Source of the DNA: a virus
IMG/VR virus record: IMGVR_UViG_3300005913_001977
Coordinates: 1 to 32,138 of that record
Length of the DNA: 32,138 nt
Reading direction: 5' to 3' (one strand)
Shown: one piece after another, positions 22,183 to 29,190 of the stretch
Layout of the letters: each line of letters begins with the position of its first letter
How positions within the stretch are numbered: the first letter of the stretch is position 1
Program-made: the position numbers and the translations under genes
Notes under the pieces: model-generated
Seen by the model: only the letters and a program-made list of their open reading frames with translations
Told to the model about the DNA's origin: nothing
Database searches by the model: none

Positions 22183-22219
22183 AAAAGAACCCCCAAAGCC
22201 GACAAAAACTTTGGGGGTT
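22183..22219 (-). terminator. Strong rho-independent terminator after the AAA+ ATPase
   Basis: An 11-bp perfect stem AACCCCCAAAG/CTTTGGGGGTT (22188-22198 with 22209-22219), 10-nt loop, followed on minus by CTTTTT. It ends the transcript of the AAA+ gene before the next promoter at 22151-22179. Confidence 0.9.
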
Positions 22220-22226
22220 TACTGCC

Positions 22227-22263
22227 CGATACACCCGGAGCCAGACAAATGGAAGGTGTATCG
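22227..22263 (-). repeat. 3' UTR hairpin 2, 9-bp perfect stem
   Basis: CGATACACC (22227-22235) pairs with GGTGTATCG (22255-22263) around a 19-nt loop. It lies between the ATPase stop and its terminator, so it would be in the 3' UTR. Confidence 0.75.
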
Positions 22264-22264
22264 T

Positions 22265-22293
22265 TTTTGGCTACTATTAATCAGTAGCCAAAA
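22265..22293 (-). repeat. 3' UTR hairpin 1, 11-bp perfect stem
   Basis: TTTTGGCTACT (22265-22275) pairs with AGTAGCCAAAA (22283-22293) around a 7-nt loop, starting 3 nt after the stop codon of the ATPase. It has no T-run on minus. Confidence 0.75.
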
Positions 22294-22296
22294 CTT

Positions 22297-23301
22297 TTAT
22301 CTACTCTTCATACAAGTAGTTTCAGCCATCAGTTCCCACTTCAATGGAAAACTCTTACGTAGCTGAGCGATTTTAATCGCCATACGCAAACTAACTTCAC
22401 GCAGTTTATTTTGTGTGGCATGCATGAAGTCAATGATCTCATCCTGTTGTATCTGATCAAAGTCGTAGTCATTAAATAATTCACCTGTGCCAGCGATCTG
22501 TTTGATACGTAGAAGTTTGTCACGCATAGTGTCTAGTGTTAGGTCTAAGTAATGACATCTTGATTGGATGGCGTCCAAATGGTCTCTGGTCTTTTGGCTT
22601 TTCATTTGGTCAAACTTTAAGTTAGTGATAAAGATCACTCCACCTTTAAAGTTAAACTGATCAGGCACGCCTTCTCTACGCAACGAATGACTGTCAGATA
22701 ACCATGAAATAACTCTCTTCTTGCTTGAGTCCAGGGCACCTTTAAGCAAGTTCAAGCAAACATCGTCCAATAAGATCGAATCACAATCATCGAACACCAC
22801 AACTGAGTTCTCATCTGAGTATTTGTAAAGTGACTTGTACATACCTAATGCTGATGCTGTACCTTTGATCATTTCACTCTTAACACGTCTTCCACTTACT
22901 TGATCAAACAGGTTGGCTTTGTCTAATTCACGTTCGATGCCATATGACTTACCAACCCCTGGAGGGCCTGCTACGATCATAGCACGGATATCACCGTTCA
23001 ATACTGCTTTGGTCATGTCATCTAAGATATCAAACCGTTGAGCAATACGTTCAATGATTTCAGCATCGGTCTCTTGACCCTCTACTTTTGGTGGAACATA
23101 TTGTGATTGGTCAACTAGTTCATAGTCAGTTGGGGAGTTGACTGTAACTCGGATCTTGTCCTTGCCAAATAGCCCAGTGCCGTCCACAGTGATAAACCCA
23201 CCGTTCGATCCTAGTTGGAATTGTTTGATTAAGGGAAATACCTGATCGGTAACTTCCTGATTGCGATAACTACCATTTTTGATTTTTACAAAACCGTTCA
23301 T
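22297..23301 (-). CDS. AAA+ family ATPase (not gp44)
   Basis: 334 aa from ATG at 23301 (MNGFVKIKNGSYRNQEVTDQ), which has an AAGGAG Shine-Dalgarno sequence 8 nt upstream. The frame is open 12 codons further up but without a ribosome-binding site. An N-terminal beta domain (1-70) precedes an AAA+ module: Walker A AGPPGVGKS (111-119), Walker B VVVFDDCDS (167-175), a sensor 1 region VIFITNLKF, and a candidate arginine finger in QSRCHYLDL. It lacks the 'EKYRP' N-terminus of clamp-loader gp44. A role in protein remodelling or replication is possible. It has its own consensus promoter and a strong terminator, so it is a single-gene unit. Confidence 0.85.
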   Translation of the reverse strand: MNGFVKIKNGSYRNQEVTDQVFPLIKQFQLGSNGGFITVDGTGLFGKDKIRVTVNSPTDYELVDQSQYVPPKVEGQETDAEIIERIAQRFDILDDMTKAVLNGDIRAMIVAGPPGVGKSYGIERELDKANLFDQVSGRRVKSEMIKGTASALGMYKSLYKYSDENSVVVFDDCDSILLDDVCLNLLKGALDSSKKRVISWLSDSHSLRREGVPDQFNFKGGVIFITNLKFDQMKSQKTRDHLDAIQSRCHYLDLTLDTMRDKLLRIKQIAGTGELFNDYDFDQIQQDEIIDFMHATQNKLREVSLRMAIKIAQLRKSFPLKWELMAETTCMKSR

Positions 23302-23365: not shown

Positions 23366-23394
23366 ATTATAGCACGATTGTTTCTATCTGTCAA
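23366..23394 (-). promoter_or_regulatory. Consensus sigma70 promoter of the AAA+ ATPase
   Basis: On minus: -35 TTGACA (23389-23394), 17 nt, -10 TATAAT (23366-23371), preceded by GTGC (extended -10). Perfect hexamers at optimal spacing. The leader is about 58 nt and ends in AAGGAG. Confidence 0.88.
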
Positions 23395-23409
23395 TCTCTT
23401 TTTACTATC

Positions 23410-23549
23410 GAAAGTGTTATTGAGCAAGCCAGGGGATTTCTAAGTGATCAATCTAACCCCTAACTACTCCAACTTGGTCTCGAGCCCACGTCTTTGTCAT
23501 TTTACTTAAACTAGACCTGCTCAATAACACCTTCATTTCCTAACTTCTT
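23410..23549 (-). ncRNA. Candidate structured non-coding RNA
   Basis: This is the main gene-free stretch of the window (23302-23642). A strong promoter (23556-23584) predicts a start near 23549. The transcript contains GTGTTATTGAGCA (23530 down to 23518) that pairs perfectly with TGCTCAATAACAC (23426 down to 23414), extendable with wobble pairs to a 17-bp closing stem (23514-23530 with 23414-23430). The enclosed 83 nt include a second element with GGGG (23460-23457) facing CCCC (23435-23432), and a GG-x-CTCGAG-x-CC palindrome near 23480. No tRNA cloverleaf or known riboswitch is seen. A 27-codon frame (23453-23536) starts with no usable ribosome-binding site. It could be a regulatory sRNA, a long leader of the AAA+ gene, or DNA structure such as an origin. 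Confidence 0.55.
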
Positions 23550-23555
23550 AAATAC

Positions 23556-23584
23556 ATTATAGCACCAACTTAACCAAAAGTCAA
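23556..23584 (-). promoter_or_regulatory. Sigma70 promoter of the candidate RNA
   Basis: On minus: -35 TTGACT (23579-23584), 17 nt, -10 TATAAT (23556-23561) preceded by GGTGC. Same type as the promoters at 23366 and 23957. Confidence 0.8.
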
Positions 23585-23642: not shown

Positions 23643-23747
23643 TTAAAGTTTTAATATCTTTATAACCAATTTACTCAGCAACCAAAATGGTGCCATTAAC
23701 ACTATTGCTAGGGAAAATATCACCATTTCAATTAACTGTCTAAACAT
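23643..23747 (-). CDS. Tiny membrane protein, 34 aa
   Basis: 34 aa: MFRQLIEMVIFSLAIVLMAP, then FWLLSKLVIKILKL. Residues about 5-25 form one hydrophobic transmembrane helix, followed by a basic C-terminus (positive-inside orientation would place the C-terminus in the cytoplasm). GGATAAT upstream and overlap with the end of the 56-aa gene suggest coupled translation: this ATG lies 3 nt past that stop. Too short for a family call. Together with the two other small membrane proteins nearby it may form part of a lysis or membrane-modifying cassette. Confidence 0.6.
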   Translation of the reverse strand: MFRQLIEMVIFSLAIVLMAPFWLLSKLVIKILKL

Positions 23748-23750
23748 ATA

Positions 23751-23921
23751 TTATCCAAAATACCCAAGTAATAAATCCATAAGCATAGCTCCAAAACAGG
23801 CAGCCATAACTAAGCTAAAGAATTTAAGCATACCCTCGATACGATCTAATTTAACGATCACTTGTTCGTATACCCGTTGTGTACGCTCTGCTGTTCCAAA
23901 ATCCCTTACTCTTTTTTCCAT
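23751..23921 (-). CDS. Small membrane protein, 56 aa
   Basis: 56 aa from ATG at 23921 (MEKRVRDFGTAERTQRVYEQ), with GGAG 7 nt upstream. A GTG four codons earlier (23933) is less likely. Residues 1-32 are charged and helical (VIVKLDRIEGMLKF), and residues about 33-54 are one transmembrane helix (LVMAACFGAMLMDLLLGY). The layout, a cytoplasmic coiled region plus C-terminal membrane helix, resembles the larger 87-aa protein at 1929-2192. Possible holin or antiholin; unproven. Confidence 0.7.
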   Translation of the reverse strand: MEKRVRDFGTAERTQRVYEQVIVKLDRIEGMLKFFSLVMAACFGAMLMDLLLGYFG

Positions 23922-23956
23922 TGCTTTCTCCACATGATTTAGTAAATTACAGCGTA

Positions 23957-23985
23957 ATTATAGCACATCTTGTGGTTAAAGTCAA
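23957..23985 (-). promoter_or_regulatory. Sigma70 promoter of the small membrane-protein genes
   Basis: On minus: -35 TTGACT (23980-23985), 17 nt, -10 TATAAT (23957-23962) preceded by TGTGC. The leader of about 30 nt carries the GGAG ribosome-binding site of the 56-aa gene. Confidence 0.82.
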
Positions 23986-25525: not shown

Positions 25526-26359
25526 TTACTCTATATTAAGTATTCCTGGATTATTATTGATAAAAGCGTGTCTATAGTAGTTCCAGACATTATATAATTC
25601 GTCACTGTCGTACTGGTTTATAGCTACTTTTAGGTTGGATAGTGCTTGTATTTCATCAAATATAGGTCTATATTTAGACAAAACTGTGTCATGGGTGTAT
25701 GTGTACGCTAAACTATCTAAGTGTTCTAATTCAAGGTATGTTGGAATTAATCTTTCAATTAAGAAAGTAAAGTTTGGTAACGACTTATCATGGGCATAGT
25801 TGCTCAACCCCTCACCAAACACTTGATGTTTAAATTCAATATCCTTGTCAGCCTCGACGAACAGCTTACGGGTAAACTCCATAAACTCTATCCAAAACTT
25901 ACGACTACCTACTACGTAGTTAGCAAATACTGTATTGTTGCGATCTAATAACATTGTCTTAACATCAACATTATCATAGCCTATCTTCTGTAAGAAACTA
26001 TTACCTATGTCACTGATGTTTGGGTGATGGAGGTCTCCCTGCTCCCAACTGTTAGCAAACACTGCTTCATTTAAAATGCATGGATTGAATAGGTAAACGT
26101 CACATCCTGGATTGTCTGACATAAATTTTAATACTTGATGTCCGTGAAGACCTGTTTTTTCTTTAAACTTCCAACTAACAAATCCCCAATAATCTAAGCC
26201 TTGTGCTAAGATGTTATCATGTTCGCGATTCCACACGTCCCATTCACGCAAGTCCGGACGCGGATTTTCTACGTTGCTCAACGGAGTAAACGCAGGGTCT
26301 AAATATTTTTCAAGCTCTGGCTTAAAGTATATTTGAAAGATTTTTGTGTTTGCTGACAT
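25526..26359 (-). CDS. Putative glycan-module protein, 277 aa
   Basis: 277 aa. It overlaps the end of the 260-aa glycosyltransferase-like gene by 38 nt, so the two are translated together. The sequence (KIFQIYFKPELEKYLDPAFTP, broken here) opens like small glycosyltransferase-like proteins that bear a 'WGFVSWKFKEKTG' segment, present here at residues 57-69. I cannot identify catalytic residues, and the fold class (possibly GT-A like) is a guess. It is the last gene of the glycan module and is followed by a palindrome and the endolysin gene. Confidence 0.7.
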   Translation of the reverse strand: MSANTKIFQIYFKPELEKYLDPAFTPLSNVENPRPDLREWDVWNREHDNILAQGLDYWGFVSWKFKEKTGLHGHQVLKFMSDNPGCDVYLFNPCILNEAVFANSWEQGDLHHPNISDIGNSFLQKIGYDNVDVKTMLLDRNNTVFANYVVGSRKFWIEFMEFTRKLFVEADKDIEFKHQVFGEGLSNYAHDKSLPNFTFLIERLIPTYLELEHLDSLAYTYTHDTVLSKYRPIFDEIQALSNLKVAINQYDSDELYNVWNYYRHAFINNNPGILNIE

Positions 26360-27104
26360 AGTATTCTAAATCCTTTGATAAATCTCTCGCTTGAGGAACG
26401 AACTCATTCTCAAGTCTATGGGTTAATGTTTCGTTGTTGGTTATATGATGATACCCCCAACCTCGTTGTCTATCTACTAGAGGTATTTGTGTTTGTATCT
26501 GTGTTTTCCTAGCAAGTTGTCCTTCATCCCAAGGGCACCAACCCCAATAGAGTGTGACCAATTGGTCTGTATTATATGAATGATAATGGCGTCCTGGACC
26601 CATACACTCAGCAGTATTATTTGGCGGATAAAATACCGGAGTATTGTGCATGCTCCTTGCCCTTCGTTCTAAAAATTGTTGAGGTCCATCTTTAAAACTA
26701 AATCCATGATGGTATTGTTCATACAAAGGAAGATCAGGATTTGCTGTATTACGTTCAACATCAATCATAAAAATATTAGGAATTAATAACTGTTGATTGG
26801 TATGATCTGATAATACCGAATAGTCGCCTATTAGTTGTTCAGTAACGTTAAGTGCTATGCGCCATCCGTCGATTGACTTTTCTATATCCATGACTTCAGT
26901 ATCTATGTTGTCTGCTTGGAAATCAGGATTACGACTTGTTACTATGTCCCATGTTGGGCATATCTCTTTGATTAGATCAACGGAATAATCTGTTGAGTGA
27001 TAGTCAATCATTATGCCATGGTCAAATATTTCCTTGTGATGGTTAAGGAACCACGGTAGCATCCATTGTTCGTTATAGAAGTGGCATATCAGGGTTTTCT
27101 TCAT
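26322..27104 (-). CDS. Glycosyltransferase-like protein (Glyco_tranf_2_4-like)
   Basis: 260 aa. The start ICHFYNEQWMLPWFLNHHKE, followed by GIMIDYHSTDYSVDL, matches the glycosyltransferase family 2 subgroup (Glyco_tranf_2_4), which recognises a nucleotide sugar through an early 'xxNE' and later 'D-x-S-D' motif. Here N/E at residues 11-12 and DYHSTDYS at 34-41 fit. The C-terminal half is unassigned. Its ATG overlaps the stop of the methyltransferase gene (ATGA). It probably adds a sugar in the surface glycan encoded by the module; donor and acceptor are unknown. Confidence 0.78.
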   Translation of the reverse strand: MKKTLICHFYNEQWMLPWFLNHHKEIFDHGIMIDYHSTDYSVDLIKEICPTWDIVTSRNPDFQADNIDTEVMDIEKSIDGWRIALNVTEQLIGDYSVLSDHTNQQLLIPNIFMIDVERNTANPDLPLYEQYHHGFSFKDGPQQFLERRARSMHNTPVFYPPNNTAECMGPGRHYHSYNTDQLVTLYWGWCPWDEGQLARKTQIQTQIPLVDRQRGWGYHHITNNETLTHRLENEFVPQARDLSKDLEYYVSKHKNLSNIL

Positions 27105-27979
27105 AGACTACTAAGCGACGCACCTTTATTGGGCATAGAGAATGTAGGGTCAACTGTTGCTTTGGGAGTTGGTGTTGTGTTAGGTATTCTAAACCTATGT
27201 TCTATCTTTGTTGGATCACATTCTTTAGTTTTTTGGAAATAGTTTGAGCTGTTGTCGATAGTTATAAATTCATCGTCAATGTTGTGGAATTTTCTATAGT
27301 CTTCCAAGGCCTTGCGGCAGTTAGGTAATCCGTAATCGTCAACTATTACGTATCCACCTACTGACAGTTTAGGGTACAGATTTTCTAACGCCACAATGGT
27401 TGATTCATACATGTCACCATCTAACCTTAAAATAGATATTTGTTTAATCTCATCTTTTAGTTTTGGCAAGGAATCACTAAACCATCCTTTAACAAATTTT
27501 ACTTGACTGCTTAATAGATTGTATCCTGCAAAATTTCGAGCTACTGTAGGCTGGTCACACTTTAACCATCCTGCGGTAAAATGTGTGTCGCCTTTATCAA
27601 TTGGATATGCTTTATCGTTGGGTTTAGGTAATCCATCAAAGCTGTCACAGACCCATATTTGTCGATCTAAAATATTCTCTGCTTTAAATATTCCAGCAAC
27701 GTATATGCATACACCACCGCGCCAGACTCCAGTTTCAACAAAATCCCCAGGAATGCTGTTGGCAGTAATTTGATCAATTAACTCATGAACATTAAGCATT
27801 CTTTTACTGCCTGCCATGCTCTGAGCATTAAACGGCCAATCTTCGCCATTCTCTCTAGCTTTTGGGTCATGTGGGCGAATTTCTCCCACTGAAGGATCAA
27901 TCCTATAGTCGGCGTATGTAAGACCAAGTATGGTGTTCCTTAACAAGTCTAAATACGATTTTTTGAAGTCTATAGCCAT
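27101..27979 (-). CDS. TylF/MycF-type O-methyltransferase
   Basis: 292 aa. It matches the macrocin O-methyltransferase (TylF) family: GDFVETGVWRGGVCIYVAGI (SAM-binding motif I with E-T-G-V-W-R-G-G), VCDSFDGLP, SILRLDGDMYESTIVALE and GGYVIVDDYG. In this family the paired aspartates bind a metal and activate the sugar hydroxyl. It methylates hydroxyl groups of (deoxy)sugars. The length and order of motifs are typical (about 250-290 aa). It lies 2 nt after the C-methyltransferase gene and overlaps the glycosyltransferase gene, consistent with making a methylated sugar of a surface glycan. Confidence 0.88.
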   Translation of the reverse strand: MAIDFKKSYLDLLRNTILGLTYADYRIDPSVGEIRPHDPKARENGEDWPFNAQSMAGSKRMLNVHELIDQITANSIPGDFVETGVWRGGVCIYVAGIFKAENILDRQIWVCDSFDGLPKPNDKAYPIDKGDTHFTAGWLKCDQPTVARNFAGYNLLSSQVKFVKGWFSDSLPKLKDEIKQISILRLDGDMYESTIVALENLYPKLSVGGYVIVDDYGLPNCRKALEDYRKFHNIDDEFITIDNSSNYFQKTKECDPTKIEHRFRIPNTTPTPKATVDPTFSMPNKGASLSSL

Positions 27980-27981
27980 TA

Positions 27982-29190
27982 TTATTCTACCTCTACTGTT
28001 GGAAAATATTTTAAGAAAACATCGTTGCTGTTGTTACGTTTAGCTTTAATTTTACCTTTAATTTCTTTAAAGAAGTTCCACGCCAATGGAACAAATACAA
28101 TTTTACGATCAGTCAGATTATCTAACTCGTCAATTGGCACTATAGGGATATTACTGCCAGGCGCAAACTTACCTTGCTTCATTGGATTGTCATCGATAAT
28201 GAGATCTAAATATAAGTCACCAGCATTGATCAATGTCATACCCTTGGCGGCCGCACCATACCCTACTATAAAATATTGGCTGAGTCGATGTATTACCAAC
28301 ATTTGGTCTAGATCCTCAAGTACCTGTCTACAACGCTGTTCGTATATTTTATAAGTTTCTAAATTCTGTGCTCCTTGGTCGCGCTCCTCTTGTAGCACTT
28401 GTTCTATGTTACCTGGTGCTGGCATCTTCTTAAACACAAACACATAACTGTTGCCATGGATTGGGGTTTTCTCAACGTTAACTAGACAAAGACCTGCTCT
28501 CTTGCTTAATTCGTTCATTGAATTCGCATTAAAGAAACTCAAATGCTCGTGATAGATAGTATCAAACTCGTTGTTCTTAACCATGTCAGCTTGGCTTGTT
28601 TGTATGAACAATACTGAATCGTCATGCATAATTTCTTTACACATTTTTAAGAATTCTAATGGATAACTGTTGTGTGCAAATACGTTTTGTGCGTTTATCA
28701 CATCTAGGTGTTTGTCTTTGAGCTGGTCAACATATTGTTCTGTAAAATAGTCACAGATAACTTCATGATTTGTTGAGCTCAACTTGTATAAATTTTCTGC
28801 AGGGTCAATGCCGTACGTAGTAAAACCTTTTGCTTTGAAACTGTCTAGCTGAGTGCCGTCATTACAAGCAATGTCTAACACATTTTTTGGATCAGTGGCA
28901 AAGAAGCTCTTGGTGTATCCAGCAAACCAATCAAAATAGTCTTTTAATGTCTGGCTGGTGCCACTAACATATAGATAGTGTTTGAACAGCAAGTCCGGAT
29001 TTACTGCGTGGCTCAATTGTAGATGTGTGCAATCTGTACAAAGATTTAGCTTTAACGGAAATGTTAATTCTTCCTCAGTTGGGCTGTCCTTAAAACTGTT
29101 AGCCATTGGCTGTTCATTTAGATCCAATGTTACTTTTAAGTTAGTGCCACCACAGCACAGACACTCTGTTAAGTGTGTTGCATTATCCAC
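27982..29190 (-). CDS. NDP-sugar C-methyltransferase
   Basis: 402 aa from GTG at 29190, which has GGGAG 8 nt upstream. The N-terminal zinc-binding motif CLCCGGTNLKVTLDL (with further Cys in FPLKLNLCTDC) followed by the FKDSP/QPMANSF segment is typical of the sugar C-methyltransferase family (Methyltransf_13). The SAM domain has VLDIACNDGTQLDSF. A C-terminal third domain (YGAAAKGMTLINAG) completes the three-domain architecture. These enzymes methylate carbon 3 of a keto-sugar nucleotide, as in branched-sugar synthesis. It overlaps the epimerase gene by 8 nt. The substrate is probably the 4-keto sugar from the dehydratase in this module. Confidence 0.88.
   Translation of the reverse strand: MDNATHLTECLCCGGTNLKVTLDLNEQPMANSFKDSPTEEELTFPLKLNLCTDCTHLQLSHAVNPDLLFKHYLYVSGTSQTLKDYFDWFAGYTKSFFATDPKNVLDIACNDGTQLDSFKAKGFTTYGIDPAENLYKLSSTNHEVICDYFTEQYVDQLKDKHLDVINAQNVFAHNSYPLEFLKMCKEIMHDDSVLFIQTSQADMVKNNEFDTIYHEHLSFFNANSMNELSKRAGLCLVNVEKTPIHGNSYVFVFKKMPAPGNIEQVLQEERDQGAQNLETYKIYEQRCRQVLEDLDQMLVIHRLSQYFIVGYGAAAKGMTLINAGDLYLDLIIDDNPMKQGKFAPGSNIPIVPIDELDNLTDRKIVFVPLAWNFFKEIKGKIKAKRNNSNDVFLKYFPTVEVE

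Follow-up and report, generated by a model that had tools for sequence, protein, structure and literature searches.

The window analysed here is a virus record of IMG/VR, taken over its whole length of 32,138 bases. Its gene set resembles that of T4-like aquatic phages, with a UvsW-type helicase, a DnaB-type helicase, a DUF6267 protein and a PHROG 1250 AAA protein, and the best matches of the DUF6267 protein were to cyanophages and Methylophilales phages. Methyltransferase genes of the sugar/antibiotic type (TylF-like, C-methyltransferase) also follow one another on the minus strand at 26322-29190, together with a glycosyltransferase-like gene. Upstream of the AAA gene lies a gene-free stretch, in which all relevant elements are on the minus strand (Table 1). 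The first-pass annotation had described here a sigma70 promoter, two complementary arms enclosing a GGGG/CCCC element and a CTCGAG palindrome, and a promoter of the AAA gene behind them, and each of these was found in place.

Table 1. Features of the gene-free stretch and the adjoining AAA gene (window coordinates).
Feature	Position	Strand	Remarks
RNA promoter, TTGACT-N17-TATAAT	23556..23584	-	canonical sigma70-type; GGTTGAC...GGTGCTATAAT; same class in relatives L002-L027
Predicted structured RNA, ~140 nt	23405..23548	-	fold z -4.5; homologues at E 2e-21 with a window-only model; conserved core 23411-23533
P1 closing helix, 5' arm	23518..23533	-	16 pairs maintained in every homologue, 2 of them with both sides altered
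Conserved GUCUAGUUUAA-n-UAAAA..CAAAGAC segment	23490..23516	-	possible helix P2 inside
P3 hairpin, invariant loop GCUCGAGA, self-complementary CUCGAG	23474..23489	-	2 pairs changed on both sides
P4 hairpin (23465-23457 with 23435-23427), invariant UUGAUCA in loop	23427..23465	-	9 pairs maintained, 2 of them with both sides altered
GGCU strand, two alternative partners	23427..23430	-	23514-23517 (P1 to 20 bp) or 23462-23465 (P4); neither option varies
P1 closing helix, 3' arm	23411..23426	-	partner of 23518..23533
Next promoter, TTGACA-N17-TATAAT, serving the AAA gene	23366..23394	-	kept in relatives without the RNA
Downstream phage AAA gene, PHROG 1250	22297..23301	-	relatives conserve the ATG at 23301 as the start rather than 23337

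The TTGAC-N-GCTATAAT promoter family was represented by 3 sites in the window against 0.00 expected, and the GGTTGAC-N-GCTATAAT class by 44 copies in 224 kb of sequence from relatives (L002-L027). The promoter ahead of the RNA (Table 1) belongs to the early class of the window's phage group. On the minus strand, the stretch 23647-23985 holds a third promoter of the same class (23985-23957), ahead of small frames that include one of 34 and one of 60 codons, both of which look like membrane proteins; the 60-aa protein had no relative in IMG/VR.

The sequence following the RNA promoter was predicted to fold with an energy of -45.9 kcal/mol, which none of 200 shuffled sequences equalled and which ranked fourth among 1,600 stretches scanned in the window. 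The annotated arms (23414-23426 and 23518-23530) are perfectly complementary over 13 nt with 91 nt between them, and lengthen, as had been stated, to 17 bp, with one G.U pair (23410-23426/23518-23534). As a correction to that length, the closing helix can reach 20 bp (23514-23533/23411-23430), an extension that competes with a longer inner hairpin. Perfect inverted repeats of 13 bp within 150 nt also arose in 17 of the 200 shuffles that preserved the window's dinucleotides, so the arms by themselves are only mildly unusual and not decisive. Inside the closing helix, a possible helix P2 would pair GUCU (23516-23513) with AGAC (23493-23490), although both strands are invariant and so carry no covariation support. 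The loops of both hairpins contain self-complementary sequence, CUCGAG in P3 and UGAUCA in P4, and could dimerise. No clear intrinsic or U-tract terminator was found right after the RNA.

Homologues were searched for in IMG/VR by a stem-pattern scan, which returned six records with the same spacing and a conserved interior; a second pattern added L089, giving seven fragments. They belong to a second aquatic T4-like lineage, here called phage B, which is only distantly related to the window phage. Its DNA polymerase is ~53% identical to those of cyanophages, and just three of its proteins had a match in the window, with identities of 26-40%. When a covariance model was made from the window sequence only, its search of 633 kb recovered L082 (E 2e-21), L088 (8e-21) and L089 (9e-15), and a further search with it recovered the records holding L082, L083, L086 and L087. 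Of 129 aligned positions, 30 differ between the version in the window and that of phage B, while the blocks TTATTGAGCAGGTCTAGTTTAA, CAAAGACG, GGCTCGAGAC, TTGATCA and GGCTTGCTCAATAA are identical.

The other searches made did not detect the RNA outside these fragments. It was absent from the upstream stretches of the 26 closest AAA-gene relatives, inspected directly, in which the AAA promoter is kept, and a model of both lineages found no copy in any of 80 AAA-related loci; 49 whole records of AAA relatives, many of them fragments, also had none. A DNA-level search of GenBank phages, a search of plasmids and a model search of eight reference phages gave no match. Several other matches were rejected: one of the model in the reference phage S-SRM01 (E 0.3) lies inside a TPR gene, weak BLAST matches in L028, L031, L068 and L069 were judged from their translation to be chaperonin (GroEL-like) coding sequence, and matches to looser DNA patterns (L084, L090, L091-L108, L109 and L110-L185) were attributed to chance, that in L090 being judged an LptF-like Desulfuromonas gene.

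The homologues made it possible to examine whether the predicted pairs are maintained. For 33 pairs in four helices, 99.2% of alignment cells can pair. In six pairs, distributed over P1, P3 and P4, both partners were replaced, and in no pair was a single partner replaced; the window version lacks one P3 pair. Six such double changes compare with 1.5 in shuffled alignments and 0-1 in slid structures, in a set that amounts to two sequence groups separated by one deep split, many of the records being fragments. P3 was recognised on the alignment and is therefore a less independent test. The fold predicted from the window only retained 38 of its 43 pairs in the homologues (permutation P 0.002), 4 of them compensatory (P 0.018). 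The conserved G.U pairs are those of the minus strand, where the model scored 137 bits compared with 22 on the opposite strand. These compensatory changes are those expected of a conserved structured RNA, and they bear out the earlier proposal of a phage structured RNA, for which a covariance search had been suggested as a check. On this comparison the element is a real, conserved structured RNA, and it represents a new family among phages.

No match to a known family was found. Rfam 15 gave 0 matches in the window region at gathering score or at E <= 10, and the sole match of L087 was a chance miRNA on the other strand (E 7). ARAGORN reported 0 tRNA or tmRNA genes in the window and in the homologue loci, in agreement with the first-pass annotation, which had set a tRNA aside. 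Tandem-hairpin terminator, riboswitch and tRNA-like readings of the RNA were considered and found unsupported, and no description of the window or phage B RNA was found in the open-licence papers searched. The structured noncoding RNAs so far known from virulent phages are few. Those of T4, RNAC and RNAD (the species 1 and 2 stable RNAs, 139 and 119 nt long and untranslated), are still described as of unknown function (PMC9697503). As small structured RNAs of a T4-type phage these are the nearest in kind to the window RNA, but RNAC has a tRNA-like arm, lies in a tRNA cluster and is expressed late. The two are not homologous: the T4 region 70908-71171, which holds RNAC and RNAD, showed no homology, and the best score of the window model was 7.8 bits, at unrelated places.

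The surroundings of the RNA differ between the lineages. In phage B it stands behind a different promoter class, TGTACTTTAATT-N-TATAAT, which recurs throughout that phage; in L225-L226 this class, with a spacing of N9-10, is present in many copies upstream of genes, and an activator encoded by the phage may recognise its constant upstream box. In the window the RNA is followed by the AAA gene, in L087 by a gene for 113 aa that precedes thymidylate synthase, and in L088 and L089 by a winged-HTH-like gene; in all three contexts the gene is on the same strand, ~75-105 nt past the RNA end. Within phage B, the cassette of promoter, RNA and hairpin is 95-98% identical at two non-equivalent sites, compared with ~73-75% for the rest of the genomes and the flanks, and L226 has an empty site at the HTH gene, with an ordinary promoter and a short leader. 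The cassette identity at two sites, the empty site and the differing neighbours together indicate that the RNA is mobile and comes to lie behind promoters that suit it.

Of the three roles that had been offered at first, an sRNA, an mRNA leader and an origin element, the first two stand and the origin is disfavoured. The reading we favour, at about an even chance, is that of a stand-alone small RNA acting in trans. It is preferred because the RNA has its own promoter, of the phage's class, as an independent small RNA should, has no constant neighbour, is separated from the window's gene by an intervening promoter and shares no downstream sequence between lineages. The locus would then be a gene for a structured noncoding RNA of ~120-140 nt, whose early transcription, on the minus strand, would start at a promoter belonging to the phage itself. 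Its 16-20 bp closing helix would seal the 5' and 3' ends and enclose a junction with P3 (CUCGAG loop) and P4 (UUGAUCA loop); the helix would protect the RNA, yielding a stable small RNA in trans, and the invariant loops and joining strands would bind a host or phage protein or RNA. Transcription, stability, action in trans and any target are predictions from sequence. Phage-encoded small RNAs of this general kind have been described: VpdS and PreS are Hfq-dependent, with reported trans activity on host or phage (review PMC12197685). They come from temperate phages, however, whereas the window RNA lacks a U-tract terminator and has far more structure.

The main alternative, which we regard as less probable but a serious contender, is a portable 5' leader, in which the RNA would stay on the downstream mRNA, either as a stabilising 5' structure or as a ligand- or protein-sensing leader. 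There is always a gene downstream and no clear terminator directly after the RNA, and in phage B the conserved cassette spans the distance from promoter to ribosome-binding site before two different genes, with the RNA beginning ~4 nt after the transcription start expected from sequence. A precedent also exists in manA (RF01745) and wcaG (RF01761), motifs of T4-like cyanophages situated upstream of varied genes, including those of nucleotide synthesis (PMC2864571). These resemble the window RNA as structured RNAs of T4-like aquatic phages before varied genes; they are, however, cis-regulatory candidates, and the window RNA matched neither of them nor any other Rfam family at E <= 10. A second complete promoter separates the window RNA from the AAA gene and is also found in relatives that have no RNA, and a closing helix of 16-20 bp would make a poor switch. 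A riboswitch or cis-acting leader would be expected before one gene class with a conserved expression platform; the RNA precedes three different genes, and since nothing downstream of it is common to both lineages there is no common platform, which argues against a leader.

A DNA-level element with no RNA function, such as an inverted repeat, a replication origin or a small insertion sequence, would be consistent with the inverted-repeat layout and with the mobility of the cassette within phage B. We consider it improbable, because three separate helices covary, the conserved G.U pairs favour an RNA of the minus strand, every copy lies directly behind a lineage-specific promoter, and the position varies, unlike that of an origin. 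A short protein-coding gene is less probable still: an open 78-codon frame spans the cassette in L088, and 15 of 27 residues agree in the common frame, but the 27-codon frame of the window, whose conservation had been named beforehand as an argument against an RNA, has no start codon in the phage B homologues and does not share its stop with them, and its substitutions are spread evenly over codon positions (6/8/7). The window moreover has an in-frame TAG, a one-base indel breaks the 78-codon frame in L082-L087, and the peptide matched nothing beyond chance in Pfam, PHROGs or GenBank phages.

If the RNA acts in trans as a small RNA, it more probably has an accessory role, in host take-over or counter-defence, than a core function in the phage, given its sporadic occurrence, its mobility between sites and the lack of any gene to which it is tied. 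Tentatively, and with less expectation of being right than for action in trans as such, we propose that the RNA belongs to a new class of structured RNAs that are carried by phages, mobile and active in trans: a small cassette exchanged among aquatic T4-like phages and plugged in behind their own promoters. Its target would be a host factor, taken over or blocked by the RNA, possibly in dimeric form through the palindromic CUCGAG and UGAUCA loops. The family is defined from sequence by its strong conservation, covariation, horizontal movement and lineage-specific promoters, and accessory mobile phage RNAs are good candidates for host-control or counter-defence factors.

Two further structured stretches were observed in the course of the analysis. 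The most stable fold of the window is formed by three tandem stable hairpins on the minus strand at 22190-22300 (z -5.6), immediately 3' of the AAA gene, the last of which is CCCCCAAAG/CTTTGGGGG followed by a T-rich run; they constitute a strong terminator. In the relative L025 (4641-4915, plus strand), and in the same stretch of L026, ~270 nt rich in hairpins (-59 kcal/mol) lie immediately upstream of the AAA promoter; they had no Rfam or tRNA match and are possibly another phage structured RNA.
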